Assembly: GCF_023699475.1 (NCBI RefSeq) | Contig: NZ_JALXFV010000008.1 | Location: 320,475 to 384,474, forward strand | Direction: 5' to 3' | DNA from: Halomarina rubra | GTDB lineage: Archaea; Halobacteriota; Halobacteria; Halobacteriales; Haloarculaceae | DNA length: 64,000 nt | In this document: positions 6,668 to 14,773 of the stretch, in pieces | How the letters are laid out: the number at the start of each line of letters is the position of its first letter | Numbering within the stretch: position 1 is the first letter of the stretch | Notes under the pieces: generated by a model | The model's database searches: none | The model's input: only the letters and a program-made list of their open reading frames with translations | Told to the model about the DNA's origin: nothing | Position numbers and translations under genes: made by a program

Positions 6668-7585
6668 TCAGACCAGCGCGTCGGGGTCGCCGTCGGCGTG
6701 TGAGCGCACCCACAGCTCCCCGATGCGCGACAGCCGCGTCCGGTAGGATTTGCCCTGTTCTTCCTGCTCGATGTACCCCTTCCCGCCCGGCCCGAGTCGG
6801 TCGACGTTGTAGATGACCTTCGAGCGAAAGGAGTCGGTGTACTCCTCGCCCAACTCGCGAGCGAGCGTCTGTGCCAGTTCGGACACCGACGCGAACACGC
6901 CGTGTTCGCCCAGCGTGAACAAGATGAGCTCCTCGAACGGCTTGACGTTCGAGAACGAGGCGACGGGGAGTTCGACGACGTGGCCGCCCTCGACCTGCTT
7001 CGCGCCGATGGTCGTCCCGCGCTCGTCGAACTCCGCGAGCAGTTCGCGGGCGTCGTCGAGCCACCCGCCGATACGCTCCTCCTCGACGGAGGAGTCACGG
7101 ACCTCCGCGAGCAGGTCGAGACCCTGGCGCAACTCCTCGGCCAACTCGGTCTCCAAGTACTTCTCGGGGACCGTGTAGTAGGTGCGGATGCGCTCGCGGT
7201 CGCCCTGCCGTTCGACCATGATGGAGTGGGCGGCGGTCGCGAACGCGAACGAGACGGTGCGGGGCATCGAAGAGACGTTCACCCACACCTCGCCCTCTTC
7301 GCGGCCCTCGCGGTCGAGTTCGGTGTTGATGAGCCCGTACGCCTGCTCGAAGGCGGTGTCGTAGTCGTAGACGTCCTCGACGACGAACCGCTCGGTCTCC
7401 GCGCCGAGCAGGTTCCGGAAGTCCTTCTCCAGTTTCGTCGCGAGGTTGCGCGAGTACTCGACGTTGGCCTCGCTCCCCACCGCGCCCTCGAGGAGGATGA
7501 CGCGGTCGACGTCGAGTTGATCTCTGACGAGCGGGGCGATGAGCCGGTCGTAGTCGAACCCGACCGGGACGATGTGGGTTTGCAT
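6668..7585 (-). CDS. CARF-like sensor/wHTH regulator (HFX_2341, DUF6293 type)
   Basis: A 305-residue protein with two parts. Residues 1 to about 135 form a Rossmann-like domain starting MQTHIVPVGFDYDRLIAP, with VWVNVSSMPRT at 101-110, the place where CARF-type ligand-binding domains carry their conserved loop. A helical linker follows, and about 215-300 reads as a winged helix (FEELILFTLGEHGVFASVSELAQTL). This is the layout of the HFX_2341 family of haloarchaeal regulators. Binding of a cyclic nucleotide is a family-based guess. The first 53 nt of the gene lie inside the 58-bp repeat that bounds the integrated element, so promoter, start codon and about 18 codons were probably supplied by the element. 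The product is nevertheless intact. Confidence 0.82.
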   Translation of the reverse strand: MQTHIVPVGFDYDRLIAPLVRDQLDVDRVILLEGAVGSEANVEYSRNLATKLEKDFRNLLGAETERFVVEDVYDYDTAFEQAYGLINTELDREGREEGEVWVNVSSMPRTVSFAFATAAHSIMVERQGDRERIRTYYTVPEKYLETELAEELRQGLDLLAEVRDSSVEEERIGGWLDDARELLAEFDERGTTIGAKQVEGGHVVELPVASFSNVKPFEELILFTLGEHGVFASVSELAQTLARELGEEYTDSFRSKVIYNVDRLGPGGKGYIEQEEQGKSYRTRLSRIGELWVRSHADGDPDALV

Positions 7586-7590
7586 ACGTG
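7533..7590. repeat. Left attachment repeat (att), 58 bp
   Basis: Identical base for base to 12754-12811. It starts with GGGGCGATGAGCCGG and ends with GCATACGTG. On the minus strand it covers the start codon and first 17 and two-thirds codons of the regulator gene plus 5 upstream nt. Flanking bases differ on both sides (C/T before, A/G after), which fixes the limits. It restores the reading frame of the host gene after integration. Confidence 0.93.
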
Positions 7591-7608
7591 ATACGGTGGT
7601 CGGGTACT

Positions 7609-7615
7609 TATAAAA
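7609..7615 (-). promoter_or_regulatory. TATA box of the regulator gene, inside the element
   Basis: The plus strand reads TATAAAA, so the minus-strand promoter reads TTTTATA. It lies 24 nt upstream of the regulator ATG at 7585, the spacing of a leaderless haloarchaeal promoter. It lies beyond the repeat and therefore belongs to the element, not to the original host locus. Confidence 0.65.
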
Positions 7616-8168
7616 CGTACCAGACTACCGACCCTTGAACTGCACATCATCACTGTGTGCGGCTACGCCGTCACGGGCTTCTGAAGAACCATACAAGGCA
7701 ATCGGCTTAGAACTTGGTGTGCGAGCAACCGGCGCGACGACTGCTGCCCGCTGCCCCCGATGAATGAACCTGTCAAGGGAGTTGAGGAACTAACGGAGTG
7801 GCCAGTTGTTCAACTCGCCTGACAGTATAGTGGAACCAGCGGGAAGGCGCGAGCGACCACCCGAGCGCGTGGCCTCTGGCCCAAGCGAAGGGTGGGAGGG
7901 AGCAACTGACCGTTACTCTTGGGTGCGTACTCAGAAAGACAACCGAAAGTTGAGAAAACGACTTTCGACACCCCCAACTTCGTTGTACTGCATATAAGTA
8001 TGCTTCGTGTGGACACCACTCACTGCTTGCTATTCATGGATTCTGATACAACTCACTTGGACACCTACTCCGCAATCCCCATGTAGAGCAATTAGGACAA
8101 TGGAGAGAATCACTACGGTATATCTCGTTCTGAACCAGTCTGAGCTTCAAGCGATGCGTACAACCGAA
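7616..8168. other. Left-end non-coding region of the element
   Basis: About 550 bp of lower-G+C sequence without a convincing gene. The few short open frames (for example 7806-7997) have non-haloarchaeal composition, no neighbouring start signals and no recognisable motif. No long inverted repeat stands out here. It separates the swapped promoter of the regulator from the iteron-like repeats before the wHTH gene and may hold part of a replication origin, but nothing in it proves that. Confidence 0.4.
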
Positions 8169-8246
8169 TCGCACTTCTGCAACTAACCGCACATTCAGTC
8201 GCACTTCTGCGACTCAGCTGGTCGTTTGGTTCGCACTTTTGCGAAT
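8169..8246. repeat. Three iteron-like repeats, about one per three helical turns
   Basis: Three 16-bp units at 8169-8184 (TCGCACTTCTGCAACT), 8199-8214 (TCGCACTTCTGCGACT) and 8231-8246 (TCGCACTTTTGCGAAT). Start-to-start distances are 30 and 32 bp, which puts them on the same helix face. The third, with its flanking T, forms the palindrome TTCGCA-CTTT-TGCGAA. They end about 40 bp before the wHTH gene. They could be operator sites for the wHTH protein or Rep-binding iterons at the origin. Confidence 0.72.
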
Positions 8247-8287
8247 TACTAACAAGTCTTATCCCTCGCAACGATTTACAGGATAAT

Positions 8288-8557
8288 ATGGCCGCTAATT
8301 GCGACCCGAAGAACCTCGACAGAGCCGGAACACCGGGACCGGAACGCACGCTCAAGAGCCGTGAAGTGTACGACCACATGGCTGAGAGCGACCCACTGGT
8401 GACGGCGAAAGGGCTGGCCGACGAGCTTGGTGTCTGCCACGCGACGACCCGCCGACGGCTTGAGGAACTTGCTGAACACGGCTACATCGGCAAGCGACGA
8501 CTCCACGCCAAGACAGTCGCGTACTGGCATCCTGAAGCTTTGACTACCGACGTGTAA
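8288..8557 (+). CDS. Winged-helix DNA-binding protein, element regulator
   Basis: An 89-residue protein. Residues about 20-85 form one winged helix: a helix with SREVYDHMAESDPLV, the HTH in TAKGLADELGVCHATTRRRLEEL, and a wing/strand GYIGKRRLHAKTVAYW. This resembles small MarR/ArsR-like wHTH proteins common in haloarchaeal plasmids and viruses. It is the first gene of a two-gene unit: its TAA stop (8555-8557) directly abuts the ATG of rep, suggesting translational coupling. Three palindromic repeats stand upstream, and a weak TATA-like CTTATC lies about 28 nt before the start. It probably controls rep transcription or assists initiation. Confidence 0.75.
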   Translation: MAANCDPKNLDRAGTPGPERTLKSREVYDHMAESDPLVTAKGLADELGVCHATTRRRLEELAEHGYIGKRRLHAKTVAYWHPEALTTDV

Positions 8558-9394
8558 ATGCAGACAACAAGAACAGCCTCAGCGAACCTTTCCTTTGGCG
8601 GGTGGGGTTCGCTGGCTACTGAAACGTTGGTTCCGCACGCTCATAGCATTTCCGACACATTCCCCGACGTCCTACGCAACGACGATGGGACCGCGAAAAC
8701 GTGGCGTGAGGCAACAGGCGAGTACGCAGCGATTCAGCAGCACTGGCTCAATACGGAACCGAGCAAGTCGAAGTTGAAGGACACGCGAAGACACTACAGG
8801 CGGATGCTCGACGCCGACCGGCGATTCAGGGAGGAGTACGACATGACTGCTGTATTCTTGACTCTTGAACAGTCGCCGAGCGACGACATGGGCAATCGTA
8901 TCGCTCCGTGGACACTTGCCGAAAACCTCGCTCACGCAAAGCGGTCGAAAATCCCGAAGGACGTCAAGCGGGCACTTGGACACAAGGACGTTGACCGCGT
9001 GGAGTGGTTCAGCGTAATGGGCGTGACCGACAACGGAACACCGCATGAACACTATACGTTCCTCGCAGACGACCCGGACAACGTGGTGACAGCAGACGAC
9101 TTCATGCCCGCGCTGAACACGCACGTCAAGCATGTACCGACTGCTAACTGGGACAAGCATATGCACGATGGCCCTGCTGTCCAAGTCCAACACGCGCCCG
9201 AGAGAGCCAAGAACGGAGCGACGGCAGCAACAACCTATACGGGCAGGAACCTCGCTCACTGGAAGCTCCGTGGCTACGCGGATGACGACGGACCGAATCC
9301 CACCAATGCCGACTACCTCAGTGGGACACTCGCGTGGGCACGCGGCAAGAAGGAGCAGTGGGTACGCTTCAGTCGGGGAATCAAAGCGGAATAA
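8558..9394 (+). CDS. Putative HUH-type rolling-circle replication initiator
   Basis: A 278-residue protein with the three ordered motifs of HUH Rep endonucleases: FLTLEQ (100-105, motif 1), PHEHYTFL (162-169, motif 2, the metal-binding H-x-H at H163/H165), and ATTYTGRNL (224-232, motif 3, with Y227 as candidate nucleophile and an Arg where many Reps have Lys). Such enzymes nick the double-strand origin and start rolling-circle replication. The N-terminal 95 residues are not recognised. It immediately follows the wHTH gene and lacks a helicase domain. The function is inferred from motif order; a relaxase role is an alternative. Confidence 0.66.
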   Translation: MQTTRTASANLSFGGWGSLATETLVPHAHSISDTFPDVLRNDDGTAKTWREATGEYAAIQQHWLNTEPSKSKLKDTRRHYRRMLDADRRFREEYDMTAVFLTLEQSPSDDMGNRIAPWTLAENLAHAKRSKIPKDVKRALGHKDVDRVEWFSVMGVTDNGTPHEHYTFLADDPDNVVTADDFMPALNTHVKHVPTANWDKHMHDGPAVQVQHAPERAKNGATAATTYTGRNLAHWKLRGYADDDGPNPTNADYLSGTLAWARGKKEQWVRFSRGIKAE

Positions 9395-10733
9395 GGGACC
9401 ACCATGTGCTGAAACGTCAAGCACGTCGGATGTCGTGAACGTTTCCTGCTCACTGGTACGCTATCAACTCCCTACACAACTCATTGTGTCACCAGTAGCT
9501 CACCCGTTATTCATGCTCTCTTGTATGTCGCCGGCAACCCATGCGTGCGTCCGATGGCTGGCAAGCTGGCAAGCTCACTCGCGTACCGCCGCCTTCCCGC
9601 GTGTCCAACTCTGTTGTCCCACTTGTCGGTAGGCTTCATCCCTACCAGCACCACCCACGGGGCACTGCTCGACTCCCTGCGCCATTCTATGTCTGAAGCT
9701 AATGAATCATGCTCGCAAAACCACCCCTGCTCAGACGCCATGTGACGGACTCCGTGATCAAGGCCCTGTGTCACTCCGTGCGTCGGGAGGTAGACTGGTG
9801 GACATCCATCACTGCTTGGGTGTCCATACTTGCTGGTTGCCACGACACTTTGACGCCATGCACGCTTTGCCGGATTTGTTAGACACAGAGCGTGAGTGTA
9901 TCAGTCCCGAGTAAAGCGACCCAATCGGGGGACAGTGTTCAACTTCTATACTTGTCGGCAGTCTTATGTGTGTCTGACACAGACCCGTGTGTAGGAGCAC
10001 TCGTTAGAACGGACAACAGGTGGAAGAGGTGGGGACGGTTGTCCGTGCCCAGAACGACCTGTTCCTGACGACCGACGCCTCAGCCAAAGGCCTCTGACAT
10101 CCTTCAAAGCGGGGTGTCGTCGTCGCTGTTTCCTACGCACCCAGTCTCACTTATACCTTTATTTTGACATAGAGAGTATCACACGCTCAGAGGCAACCTC
10201 CGCCAACTCACGCGATATACACGCGGCACACGTCTACCAGCTGCGTCACACCGAGCCGGCGTGAAAGAAAGGTGGTTGTCCAACATTGTGGAGCGGGCCA
10301 GTCGGGTTGGCTTCCCGCGTGATCCCGTCCGTGTTCACCGCGTTGCTCCATCATGTGATGGGCATGCGGTCCCATCACCGCCTCACTCAACTACAGCACC
10401 AACCACGCGCACAAACCACTGGCAACCTGTTGCTCGTACTCCATGGCAACCGAACCCCCTACCCCCTTTCTGACATTGACGACCTGACAAGGTGATGCAC
10501 ATGGGTAAGTTTCATAGAGAATTTCCCAGTTTTCAGTTGTCTCATAGGTGCTGTTCCCCGTCTTGGTGTCCACCCAGTTGCTCAATTGCGGGATGGCGGG
10601 GGTGACTGCGGGAAGCGGTAGGCGAAAGCCCGTGCGTTGAAGGCAACAGGAACGTGAAGGATAGGGCGACGTCCAAACCCACCTTTCTTGTGTTGTTCGC
10701 GGAGTTTTTGTGGGTTCGTTTATTCTATAGACT
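9395..10733. other. Long gene-poor region of the element with hairpins
   Basis: A 1.34-kb stretch without a credible coding gene: open frames are short, in conflicting directions, and lack acidic haloarchaeal composition. It contains structured sites. There is a palindrome TGTGTC-T-GACACA (9969-9981). Two overlapping inverted repeats follow: CGGACAAC (10010-10017) can pair with GTTGTCCG (10038-10045), while AACAGGT (10015-10021) can pair with ACCTGTT (10057-10063), so the two stems exclude each other. GTGATGGG (10355-10362) pairs with CCCATCAC (10371-10378). An A+T-rich TATA-like patch lies near 10149-10165. Candidate roles are replication origin or regulatory RNA. Confidence 0.5.
10718..10727 (+). 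promoter_or_regulatory. TATA-like promoter of the cargo gene pair
   Basis: The sequence around GTTTATTCTATAG is A+T rich in an otherwise mixed context. Its centre is about 27 nt before ATG 10749, giving a leaderless start there, whereas the ATG at 10734 is too close to be used from this promoter. Confidence 0.45.
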
Positions 10734-10748
10734 ATGCGACAACTCAGT

Positions 10749-10976
10749 ATGGACCCGCTGAGTGAGGAAGAAGCAATGTCAAGGAGTGATTCTGGTGAAC
10801 AAGCTATATTTACTCCTAATGGCTCCCCTGCTTTTTCGAGCGACCCAGCAAGTGTCGAATATATCTGCCATGACTGTCAGTGCGTTTTAGCAAAGCTGTT
10901 TCAGACCATCTACCTGAATACAATCGTCCAATGTCCCAATTGCGAGTCATATAATGAGTTTCCTCACAGTCCCTAA
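10749..10976 (+). CDS. Small zinc-ribbon protein (element cargo)
   Basis: A 75-residue protein if started at ATG 10749, chosen from the upstream TATA spacing; an in-frame ATG at 10734 would add five residues. The C-terminal half has two Cys pairs, ICHDC (C40/C43) and QCPNC (C62/C65), spaced as a treble-clef or zinc-ribbon knuckle pair; the N-terminal 35 residues look disordered. No enzymatic domain is visible. The last 23 nt overlap the next gene in another frame, so the two are probably co-transcribed and translationally linked. I do not recognise the family. It may be a DNA-, RNA- or protein-binding partner of the downstream membrane protein. Confidence 0.6.
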   Translation: MDPLSEEEAMSRSDSGEQAIFTPNGSPAFSSDPASVEYICHDCQCVLAKLFQTIYLNTIVQCPNCESYNEFPHSP

Positions 10977-11541
10977 CGGTACAGGAACTTCCCAGATATT
11001 CACTTGGACAAACCTCGAACTGGTGCTTACCTTGTGCCAAGTTGGACTCACTGCTCTGATTGGTCTTACAGCCCCCTTGCACCCACGATTCTCCCGCTAC
11101 AAGAACCAAGCAATAGAGGGGATAAATACACTCGAACAACCTGTATTTGACTTCGGTTCAATTCGTGTTGGCGTTGTTGAGTCCGGTGAGCGCGGGTTTG
11201 AGGAGCTTGAAGATGCAATTTCATCACATTATCCACTGTCCGGGCCTGTACGTCGTGTCAAAGTAGCACTTGGACACCCAGAGTCGATCAAGAATCAACT
11301 GGACATGGAACTCGGGGCGATGGTTGGACCTAATGCTGTGGTGTTTGTCGAATACGATGAAGACGTGGAACGGGAGCGCGACATCATCACGTTTCACCCA
11401 TTTGACCCGGCACAGACGCTCAAGCTAACCGAACTGCGGCGTTGGGTCCAGTCACGAACACAAGACAGAGGCCATGCAATCATCGTTGCGTCCACTCTCC
11501 TTTGGACCGTTGTTTCAATGACCATCGCAGTCTGGTTTTGA
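10954..11541 (+). CDS. Two-TM membrane protein of unknown family (element cargo)
   Basis: A 195-residue protein. A moderately hydrophobic segment at about 20-40 (LELVLTLCQVGLTALIGLTA) and a strong one at about 174-195 (HAIIVASTLLWTVVSMTIAVWF, ending at the stop) flank a soluble region of about 130 residues. That region has strand-like stretches (SIRVGVVESG, VRRVKVALGHP, NAVVFVEYDED) and looks alpha/beta. The topology would place the central domain on one side of the membrane, tethered at both ends. Its start overlaps the zinc-ribbon gene by 23 nt. It has no match I can name; an accessory role such as host interference or exclusion is only a guess. Confidence 0.6.
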   Translation: MSFLTVPNGTGTSQIFTWTNLELVLTLCQVGLTALIGLTAPLHPRFSRYKNQAIEGINTLEQPVFDFGSIRVGVVESGERGFEELEDAISSHYPLSGPVRRVKVALGHPESIKNQLDMELGAMVGPNAVVFVEYDEDVERERDIITFHPFDPAQTLKLTELRRWVQSRTQDRGHAIIVASTLLWTVVSMTIAVWF

Positions 11542-11687
11542 GACTTGACGTTTGCACAACGGTGATACAACGCAGACTTAGCCTCAGGATAGAAATACTG
11601 GGCCGTCTTGCCTCTTGGTAGATCCCCGTTTTCACAAGCTCTGTAAACGACCTAAGACGAGTATGGGCTACCTGTACGAAACCTCGC

Positions 11688-12710
11688 CTACAACCCCTCC
11701 AAATACCCCCGGCGTTGCTCCACCTTCACCTCCTCTGACCGCCTATCGTAGTGCGCTTCCAGTACATCAGGACTCACGTTCATGCGGTCACTCACAACCT
11801 CAACAGGCACGTCCTCCGTCAAGTGATGCGTAATCGCTCCACGTCGCCATGCATGTGGACTCCGGGCAGATGGACAGGTGGACGGCGCTTTGTTCGGTGT
11901 CGTGAGTGCTTGGCAACTGTCCATCTCTTTCCCATGCGGGCACTGTCCACCGTTGTACTGACACGGGTGTGTCCACTTGTAGCACGTCGCCCGTATCGTT
12001 GACCGGGACACTCGACCAAACTGCGTGGTGAACAGCGGTTGCCGCCCGTCGTCGTCAACTACGTCGTCACGGGTGTGGTCAACGTAGTCGTTCAACACTT
12101 GGCAGGTGTCCGAGCTTAGGGCAATCAACCGCTCACCGTTCTCCTTGTTCTTGAGCGGTGTGCCTTCCCGATGGACAGCACGTAGCCGCGCGTTCTCCCG
12201 GTCGTAGTCCTGTACGTCAAAGGCGCGTATCGTTCCGGAGCGCACGCCACACCGCCAGAGAACCGACAGCAACGTGTGGTGCATAGAGGCGAACTTGAAC
12301 CGAGCGAGGTAGGTCAGCACACGCTCCGCCTGCTCTTTGTCCACCAGCACGTCACGCTCCCTATCCCCTTGATTGAGCGAGGGCGAGAGTACCTTGTTGT
12401 GAAGGTCTTGCTCCACCGCGTCTATGGACTCACAGAACCGAACAAATGACCGTAGCGTGTCCAACTGCGCCTTGAGCGAGACAGGTGCGAGGTCTTGTGC
12501 GCGGTGTTGCTTGAACGCCAGTAGCCGCCTGCCCGTCAACTCGTTGAGGTTGCCGATGCCCTCGGACTCGCACCACTCGGTAAAGTGGCTCAGTTTGTAC
12601 GCATACGAGTCGAGCGTCTGGCTTGCCAGTTCCGCTCGTCGGTCGGTCAGATAGAGGTCAACTGCATCGTCCGGTGCGATTGGTTCGAGTGTGGTTTCGG
12701 AGTGTGACAT
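11688..12710 (-). CDS. Tyrosine recombinase/integrase of the element
   Basis: A 340-residue protein. The N-terminal SAM-like core-binding domain (about 10-100) contains SQTLDSYAYKLSHFTEWCE. The catalytic domain shows CGVRSGTIRAF with catalytic R157, PHAWRRGA with the H-x-x-R pair H286/R289, and LEAHYDRRS with nucleophile Y321. A cysteine-rich insert (C250, C257, C266, C279) precedes the HxxR box and could bind zinc, as in other haloarchaeal integrases. The second conserved His/Trp before the tyrosine is not obvious. The gene ends at 11688 and its start is 44 bp from the right att repeat, fitting a self-integrating element. Confidence 0.92.
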   Translation of the reverse strand: MSHSETTLEPIAPDDAVDLYLTDRRAELASQTLDSYAYKLSHFTEWCESEGIGNLNELTGRRLLAFKQHRAQDLAPVSLKAQLDTLRSFVRFCESIDAVEQDLHNKVLSPSLNQGDRERDVLVDKEQAERVLTYLARFKFASMHHTLLSVLWRCGVRSGTIRAFDVQDYDRENARLRAVHREGTPLKNKENGERLIALSSDTCQVLNDYVDHTRDDVVDDDGRQPLFTTQFGRVSRSTIRATCYKWTHPCQYNGGQCPHGKEMDSCQALTTPNKAPSTCPSARSPHAWRRGAITHHLTEDVPVEVVSDRMNVSPDVLEAHYDRRSEEVKVEQRRGYLEGL

Positions 12711-12731
12711 CTTGGCTCCGAAGCCCGGTAT

Positions 12732-12806
12732 TCAGGGTAGCTGAACCCCCTGTGGGGCGATGAGCCGGTCGTAGTCGAACCCGACCGGGACGATGTGGGT
12801 TTGCAT
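12732..12806 (-). pseudogene. Severed 5' end of the regulator gene, now a 24-codon leader
   Basis: Reading from ATG 12806, the first 18 residues are identical to the start of the HFX_2341-type regulator. After the repeat boundary the frame runs six more codons (QGVQLP, starting from the junction) to TGA at 12732-12734. The integrase start lies 21 nt beyond. It is the leftover of the host gene, still behind its probable original promoter. It may be translated as a leader peptide ahead of the integrase. Confidence 0.7.
12734..12757. repeat. Inverted repeats at the inner edge of the right att site
   Basis: CAGGG (12734-12738) pairs with CCCTG (12748-12752), and CCCC-TGT-GGGG (12747-12757) spans the element/repeat boundary. 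TTCAG-GGTAG-CTGAA at 12731-12745 is a further alternative stem. These overlapping palindromes lie between the integrase start and the repeat and may be integrase or regulator binding sites. Confidence 0.4.
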
Positions 12807-12811
12807 ACGTG
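12754..12811. repeat. Right attachment repeat (att), 58 bp
   Basis: Exact second copy of 7533-7590. Its outer side (12812 onward) is host sequence with a TATA box in the same relative position as the one beside the left copy. The inner side leads into the integrase gene. Confidence 0.93.
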
Positions 12812-12829
12812 GTATGGCGCGAGACGGCG

Positions 12830-12836
12830 TATAAAA
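12830..12836 (-). promoter_or_regulatory. Probable native TATA box of the regulator, now facing the integrase
   Basis: TATAAAA on the plus strand, 24 nt before ATG 12806, exactly the spacing seen at 7609-7615 and 7585. Bases between the TATA box and the repeat differ from the left copy, so the two promoters are separate. Transcription would run through the 24-codon remnant into the integrase gene. Confidence 0.65.
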
Positions 12837-12895
12837 TCCAGCAGTCGCTACCGGCCCAGGCGTCGAAAGAAAGGAGACGAGCGTGGGTTGGCCGC

Positions 12896-14773
12896 TCAGT
12901 GCTCCGCGTCGGGGAGGTCGACGGTGAAGGTGTAGGTGCCACCGTCGAGGGTCATGGTCTCGGCGTCGACCATCGTCTGGGTCTCGTCCCAGTCGAACGT
13001 CGCGTCGGGAGTCTCGTAGCTGACCAGCGAGAGGGTCAGGGACTCGCCATCAGCGACCGTGACCGTCACCTCGGCGGTCTCACCGTCCTCGCTGATTTCG
13101 ATGTCGGACGCTTCGATGGCGTCGCTGTACTCGGGGTTCAGCGAGCTAGCGGTCGCAGAGGACGTCTCACCGTCGGCGGTGGTGCCGTGGAGGTAGCTGA
13201 CGAGGCGACCCTCGGGACTGTAGAAGTCCTCGGTCGTCTCGCCGAGTTTCTCGTTGGGCTCGCCGACCACGAGGTCGACCTGGTAGTAGCGCTCCTCGCT
13301 CGAATCGTCGTTGTTCTCGTCCTGATTATCGTCGCTATCGTCGTTGTTCTGCTCGTCGTCGCTGTCGTCCTGATTGTCGTCCGGCTCGGTGAACGTCACT
13401 GTCGCCGTCGTGTAGGCCGTCCCGTTCGTGTCCGGAACGTTTCGCGTCCGGAGGATGATAGTGCCGTCACCAGCATCGAACCCGGAAGTGTCGAGTGAGA
13501 CGTCGATGGTCGTCGATTCGTTGTGCTCGAGGCCCACACGGGAGCCCAGTCGCTCACTGTCGATCTCGCCATCGTCGTCGTAATCTGCACCGATTTCGAC
13601 GTACTGGTAGTCGGTTCCGCCATAGTTCGTCAGCGTCGCCGAAACCTGAATCTCCTCGCCAATCACGGCTGTCTCGGGAACAGAGACGTTCGAGTACTCG
13701 AACAGGCCGGGATCGACGTCGTACGGGTCGTCCGCAGTCACCGGTCGTGAGTCGCCGTTCTGGTCACCGCGGACGATGAGCGTGTGCTCGCTGTCGACGA
13801 GATTATCGGTCGACAACTCGAACGTGACGTCCTCGACGCCCTCGTATGCGAGCGTCAGGTCGCGCTCGGTACCGACGTCGATCTGGGAGTCACCGTCGGT
13901 GTCGAACCCAGCTTCGAGGGTCTCGGTACCGTCGTCGCCCACGTTCGAGACCGTCGCGTTGACGGTGTAGGTCTCGCCGACCATCACGGTCTCGTCGTAG
14001 TCCGTGATCTCGACCATGAACTCGCTGGAGCCGGCGTCGCTCTCGGTGACGGTCAGGGTCGTCCGGACCATCTCCGACGGGGTCGAGACGACGACGTCGT
14101 ACTCGCCGGGTTCGAGGTCGTCGGCCGATAGCTCGAACTCGACGGTCTTGCGCTCGCTGTAGTTGAGCGTCAGGTTCTGTGTCGCACTGACGTCGGTCGC
14201 GTTGTCACCGTCGTAGACGGTCGCGCTCACGGGCAGGGTGCCGGCGTTACCGGTGTTGCTGACATTCGCCGAGACGGTGAACGTCTCACCTTCGGTCACC
14301 GTGTCGGGTGCGTCCGGTTCAGTCGGGATGAACTCGCCGGGGTACTCGTCCCCGACGATCGTCACCGTCGTCGAAGCCGTGTCCGTGTCGGACTTGACGA
14401 GAATGGTGCCTTCGCCGAGGTCGAAGCCGACGGTCTCGACGGAGAATTCGACGGTCGTCGACTCGTTGGTGGCGAGCGTCAGCGACTCGCCGTCGAGTCC
14501 GCCGAGGCCGCCTTCGATGTCGCCGTCGTCGTCGGTGTCGGCACCCGCGTACACGTCCTGCGTGTCGTTTGCACCGACGTTCGTCACGGTCGCCGTGACG
14601 ATCACCTTCTCGCCGGACTCGGCGGTGTCCGGTGCGGAGACGTCCGAGATGACGAAGTCGCCCGTGTCTGTACTGTCGTCCTGGAGGGTCACCGCTCCGA
14701 CACCCGCCAACCCGGCCGAGGAGACCAGAAGGAGGGCCATCAAAGCAACAGATGTCTTGTAGAGTTTCTTCAT
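12896..14773 (-). CDS. Secreted protein with four CARDB-like domains
   Basis: A 625-residue exported protein. Residues 1 to about 28 are a Sec-type signal peptide (MKKLYKTSVALMALLLVSSA). Four Ig-like CARDB repeats follow, each with a V-TATVTNVG-type strand and a D-rich DTDDDGDI-like loop: about 40-140, 145-240, 250-345 and 355-465. An Asp/Asn/Gln-rich linker (about 467-500) leads to a C-terminal domain of about 120 residues that I do not recognise. There is no visible PGF-CTERM or C-terminal TM, so it is probably released or held non-covalently. The acidic loops may bind calcium. It lies just outside the integrated element and points toward it. Confidence 0.8.
   Translation of the reverse strand: MKKLYKTSVALMALLLVSSAGLAGVGAVTLQDDSTDTGDFVISDVSAPDTAESGEKVIVTATVTNVGANDTQDVYAGADTDDDGDIEGGLGGLDGESLTLATNESTTVEFSVETVGFDLGEGTILVKSDTDTASTTVTIVGDEYPGEFIPTEPDAPDTVTEGETFTVSANVSNTGNAGTLPVSATVYDGDNATDVSATQNLTLNYSERKTVEFELSADDLEPGEYDVVVSTPSEMVRTTLTVTESDAGSSEFMVEITDYDETVMVGETYTVNATVSNVGDDGTETLEAGFDTDGDSQIDVGTERDLTLAYEGVEDVTFELSTDNLVDSEHTLIVRGDQNGDSRPVTADDPYDVDPGLFEYSNVSVPETAVIGEEIQVSATLTNYGGTDYQYVEIGADYDDDGEIDSERLGSRVGLEHNESTTIDVSLDTSGFDAGDGTIILRTRNVPDTNGTAYTTATVTFTEPDDNQDDSDDEQNNDDSDDNQDENNDDSSEERYYQVDLVVGEPNEKLGETTEDFYSPEGRLVSYLHGTTADGETSSATASSLNPEYSDAIEASDIEISEDGETAEVTVTVADGESLTLSLVSYETPDATFDWDETQTMVDAETMTLDGGTYTFTVDLPDAEH

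Follow-up and report, generated by a model that had tools for sequence, protein, structure and literature searches.

Promoter exchange at the start of the HFX_2341 regulator gene: an integrated element of Halomarina rubra and its integrase clade

The 64,000-nucleotide stretch of Halomarina rubra DNA analyzed here (the window) contains a regulator gene whose first codons are present twice, several kilobases apart. How can a mobile element occupy the start of a protein gene and leave that gene whole, and is this placement peculiar to one genome? The answer developed below, to which we assign a probability of about 0.9, is that the intervening segment is a mobile element that has integrated here and is probably an integrative plasmid. 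It encodes an SNJ2-type integrase from a clade that specializes in the opening ~50 nt of the gene HFX_2341 (crr), and insertion of the element exchanges promoters.

Boundaries of the insertion and empty sites

The target gene (6668-7585, minus strand, start codon at 7585) is intact and encodes a 305-aa protein that matches PF19810, PF24989 and NF051475, the last with 568.6 bits, above the cut-off of 500. An earlier reading made from the letters alone (the sequence-only reading) had described a perfect 58-bp direct repeat over the first 53 nt of this gene, bracketing a segment of lower G+C content, and all three claims are borne out. The copies at 7533-7590 (gene side) and 12754-12811 (integrase side), both taken on the minus strand, are identical 58-mers bounded by mismatches on either side. 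The chance expectation for such a pair in a 64-kb window is ~1.6e-23. The gene-side copy consists of the first 53 nt of HFX_2341 and 5 nt upstream of it. G+C content is 55.3% in the 5.2-kb interior between the copies and 66.9% in the flanks.

An empty site with one repeat copy had been suggested as the feature to look for in relatives, and two genomes of the same genus, G002 and G007, have it. When the flanks of the window are joined in silico, the product aligns to these genomes without gaps across the junction (726-727 nt, 90% identity). Integration, rather than an ancestral gene order, is also what four other lineages display. Upstream neighbours of HFX_2341 are displaced there, relative to empty relatives, by exactly the length of the element: 7297 nt in G117, 15305 nt in G114, 3687 nt in G135 and 4431 nt in G012. 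In G002 and G007 the PCNA gene lies directly upstream of HFX_2341, whereas the window has the two separated by the element and a CARDB-type gene. The latter (12896-14773, between element and PCNA) encodes a secreted CARDB/Ig-like protein and is a separate insertion, because the same-genus relatives lack it at that place.

An integrase clade with a single target

SNJ2-type integrases are tyrosine recombinases with SAM-like N-terminal and catalytic domains that occur only in Halobacteria (PMC8371274). The integrase named in the sequence-only reading is a tyrosine integrase of this kind, encoded at 11688-12710 on the minus strand (340 aa), with a GGAG motif at 12716-12719 ahead of its ATG. PF02899 (Phage_int_SAM) and PF00589 (Phage_integrase) both score above cut-off, the same domain make-up as in SNJ2-type integrases. 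The type is defined by at least 30% identity over 60% of the length to the SNJ2 integrase (PMC8371274), and the window protein reaches 45.6% over 98%. An att site at a tRNA 3' end is usual for the type, and an int operon that also encodes two small helpers is optional, but neither defines it; the att site in the window is the 5' end of HFX_2341, not a tRNA 3' end. The catalytic R...HxxR...Y set is complete (R157/R162, HAWR at 286-289 with H286 and R289, and Y321) and invariant in the clade.

Close relatives of this integrase occupy the same spot in HFX_2341 in many other haloarchaea. Ten genomes from four family-level groups, including Haloglomus halophilum, Haloferax profundi and Halobacterium sp. 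CBA1126, encode an intact integrase at least 67% identical to it. Each of the 10 is preceded by a copy of the opening ~15-20 codons of HFX_2341, which starts ~80-100 nt before the integrase. Eight of them share a contig with the complete HFX_2341 gene, situated 4.5-21 kb further downstream; the remaining two come from fragmented drafts, and in one of these the assembly breaks at the repeat. The contig of the Haloferax profundi draft (L132/L221) opens at precisely codon 18 of HFX_2341, with the assembly interrupted at the repeat. Truncated integrases occupy the same place in G010, G117, G135, G470 and other genomes.

The 10 integrases form one clade with support of 100/100. Beside int in the next relatives (46-57% identity, n=19), the repeat ends in a predicted tRNA 3' end in 14 cases, with tRNAs for Arg, Pro, Phe, Ile and Tyr. 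A single clade at HFX_2341, with tRNA use in 14 of the 19 more distant relatives, suggests as the simplest reading that one integrase lineage switched its target once, leaving tRNA genes for the first codons of a conserved protein gene. Since the whole clade does likewise, the window insertion is not a one-off. More than a dozen occupied sites and many empty ones thus provide a natural, testable series for a change of target in an archaeal integrase lineage.

Exchange of promoters

The sequence-only reading held that the element rebuilds the 5' end of a protein gene. This is right, and in addition the promoter is replaced, while the displaced native promoter faces the integrase. On the gene side, the element supplies a promoter (7602-7623, minus strand) with TTTTATAA at 7608-7615, ~27 nt from the ATG and within a CTGGTAC/GTACC palindrome. 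This TATA box has the same position as in other occupied sites, at leaderless spacing. Immediately upstream is a conserved element end (7624-7665, minus strand; GTGATGATGTGCAGTTCAAGGGTCG), recognized by an nhmmer signature with E 1e-8 in the window genome. The signature, a profile of the distal upstream part, matches at occupied or decayed sites only.

On the integrase side, the native promoter of HFX_2341 (12812-12847, minus strand; TATA at 12830-12836) now stands ahead of a stub ORF and int, and it matches the promoters at the empty sites of G002 and G007. The stub (12732-12806, minus strand) contains the displaced first 18 codons of HFX_2341, reads MQTHIVPVGFDYDRLIAPQGVQLP to its stop codon and ends before int. 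The TATA-to-ATG distance in the window (~27 nt, leaderless) is equal on both sides. In six occupied genomes the int-side promoter is the native one of an empty relative in the same genus (occupied/empty: G117/G044, G114/G116, G135/G134, G012/G086, G109/G080 and, for the window genome itself, G000/G002). The rebuilt HFX_2341 genes have a different upstream region, one common to elements across genera.

These arrangements are what a simple recombination would yield. A circular form of the element, presumably released by excision, would carry in order its own promoter, attP (a copy of the HFX_2341 start) and int. Recombination between attP and attB within the first codons of HFX_2341 would restore the full ORF and exchange the promoters. 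The element's TATA promoter, at unchanged leaderless distance, would then drive HFX_2341, and the promoter that formerly served HFX_2341 in the host would drive int by way of the short stub ORF; both promoters are presumably active. No free circle and no plasmid or viral form was found in viral, phage and plasmid collections.

Element-borne and displaced native promoters differ in sequence. The mean TATA match to TTTATATAA is 7.9 of 9 for the former versus 5.6 of 9 for the latter, and in 15 pairs the element promoter scores higher in 12, ties in 3 and is lower in none; p-values for this comparison are optimistic because element ends share ancestry. Element promoters also have a palindrome over the TATA box that is mostly missing from native promoters. 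In G391 the signature lies ~30 bp further upstream, and a TATA box is absent at the usual distance. An element-like CTGGTnnTTTW is present just ahead of the TATA box in 17 of 82 native HFX_2341 promoters too, where it might serve as an operator for whatever protein regulates HFX_2341, or mark old element ends.

The principle has precedents in bacterial dusA islands and archaeal pTN3-type integrases. As in dusA islands (PMC4482086), a protein gene is entered at its conserved 5' end by a dedicated integrase family, its ORF is restored, and the incoming DNA provides a promoter-like sequence. Those islands differ in being bacterial, in targeting a tRNA-modification enzyme and in using another integrase family, whereas here the gene encodes a regulator and the promoter is an archaeal one with a TATA box. 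With HFX_2341 in place of dusA and its dusA-specific integrase, the element resembles them in mechanism alone. For pTN3-type integrases, too, attB falls within a gene's 5' half, and the recombinant gene is read from the integrase promoter (PMC8371274). Unlike the HFX_2341 clade, they target tRNA genes, and their int gene contains att and is split on integration; the window int is whole, at 340 codons. SNJ2 itself and most relatives compared use tRNA 3' ends, in contrast to the protein-gene 5' end and promoter swap of this clade.

Other archaeal elements with att inside a coding sequence are BJ1, in the HMG-CoA reductase gene, and NitGar-E6, in an AsnC regulator gene. In the part of PMC8371274 that treats them, these are given as scattered single cases, with neither a dedicated clade nor a promoter exchange, and the HFX_2341 site has both. 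The literature searched held no earlier report of the HFX_2341 target or of this integrase clade, though a mention in work on SNJ2 integrases is possible.

Choice of target, element content and decayed sites

Why this gene start is used has a better-than-even answer in neutral target choice: the clade would use a stretch that contains a dyad and is better conserved than any other in a gene found in nearly all haloarchaea, and the promoter brought along would merely keep that gene working. Of 104 windows taken along HFX_2341, the first 54 nt rank top in nucleotide identity, with 0.92 versus a median of 0.81. The att core, CCGGTCG-GGTTCGACTA-CGACCGG, carries an inverted repeat (arms separated by 10 nt) flanking TTCGA. 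Codons CCG, GTC and CGG of the dyad arms are invariant among 22 genomes, and synonymous constraint over the whole 19-codon att stretch is unremarkable (rank 24 of 253). As a lead, TTCGA within an inverted repeat recalls the T-arm of the tRNAs that related integrases use. Neutral choice alone leaves unexplained the better TATA match and the palindrome of the element promoters.

These two features could instead point to a takeover of the regulator. HFX_2341 (crr) is a global repressor in Haloferax mediterranei, where its overexpression strongly lowers cas mRNA and its deletion changes cas expression only modestly; species that lack CRISPR have it as well (PMC11434293). Replacing the promoter of such a regulator could accordingly have consequences for the host, in keeping with the earlier suggestion that integration could affect host signalling, and manipulation of host defence is imaginable. 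The element promoter would raise or rewire the repressor, host defence (including CRISPR-Cas) or metabolism would then tolerate the element, and the site would be favoured for that reason. In its fullest form, which we regard as speculative, the clade takes over HFX_2341 through a stronger, operator-bearing promoter that damps defences or couples repressor level to the element. The displaced host promoter would tie int to the state of the host, and the element promoter could outlast a decayed element as the gene's permanent one.

The cas repression, the TATA scores, the palindrome and the survival of element promoters at some decayed sites are consistent with such a takeover. It is nonetheless doubtful. 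TATA match is a weak proxy for promoter strength, and the scores come from element ends of shared ancestry. The regulator is global and not confined to species with CRISPR. A CRISPR-specific benefit, considered as the main explanation, is unsupported because Cas1 is absent from the genomes of the window and of G001; nor is Cas1 clearly enriched among occupied genomes. Neutral target choice is the likelier reading. The reciprocal exchange concerns a global regulator that is conserved and linked to cas expression, and most elements that use the site bring restriction-modification genes. It further suggests a testable idea about a self-spacer hotspot that was named at HFX_2341, near a putative transposable element, in H. 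mediterranei (PMC11434293) and is otherwise unexplained. In a search for such an element at the hotspot, a published primer had no match in 52 Haloferax-group genomes.

The genes between the repeats bear on what kind of element this is. Three iteron-like repeats (TCGCACTTyTGCrAnT, 8169-8246) form a candidate replication origin upstream of a gene pair on the plus strand. The first gene encodes the winged-HTH protein that the sequence-only reading had named (8288-8557, 89 aa), with PF09339 at 23.1 bits, just above cut-off. The second encodes a 278-aa Rep-like protein (8558-9394) related to DUF1424, which presumably drives replication. Its description as 'HUH-like' is plausible and stops short of proof because the library match comes by way of homologues: these occur in 14 haloarchaeal genomes, and several score as PF07232/DUF1424 'putative rep protein', while the window protein itself has no direct family-library match. 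It keeps the PHEH (HxH) motif and a conserved Tyr.

The cargo genes that had been claimed correspond to two plus-strand ORFs in common with the element of G001. One (10734-10976, 80 aa) is zinc-ribbon-like, with a weak PF08271 match and a 58% homologue there. The other (10954-11541, 195 aa) has hydrophobic segments near both ends and a 68% homologue; it has no family match and no PADLOC hit. Related elements mostly carry restriction-modification genes: Type I systems in G114 and G338, an Eco57I-type enzyme in G436, an N6-methylase/HsdR-like protein in G117, a DUF1156 methylase in G470, Mrr-type nucleases in G357 and G391, and a D12 methylase in G330. No tandem second element was found beside the one in G357.

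That the element is a pleolipovirus-like provirus rather than a plasmid is improbable. Among named elements its integrase is nearest to those of the temperate pleolipoviruses SNJ2 and HHPV4 (44-46%), but a PHROG search of the window element's genes found no virion proteins, including the spike and membrane proteins of Pleolipoviridae. Rep has no match in the phage collection, and the cargo of other members is restriction-modification.

Elements at this site also decay. An extra 5' stub of HFX_2341 is present in at least 9 of the 136 host-family genomes that have the gene. Five further host-family genomes have the element-type promoter alone, with neither intact integrase nor stub nearby (G014, G028, G025, G146 and G005; loci L154, L155, L156, L190 and L044). 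By their sequence, these sites appear to be decayed elements or retained promoters. In G025 a remnant of ~2 kb is left, and HFX_2341 still has the element promoter.

In G278, of the Haloferax group, the promoter and 5' end of HFX_2341 are duplicated 1.6 kb apart without an integrase (L209, positions 976 and 2608), perhaps through another mechanism or as a deep remnant. Such small duplications might suggest that the window repeat is itself a local duplication or transposon artefact made without the integrase, an origin that the empty sites and the clade refute at this locus and that is scarcely credible given exact empty sites, displaced neighbours and, in all intact cases, an integrase next to the stub. 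The window element has itself received a MITE-like insertion (9862-10270), with copies of 94-98% identity elsewhere in the same genome. Near-identical ones lie at C15:315547-315909 and C9:550228-550608 of G000, together with many partial copies.
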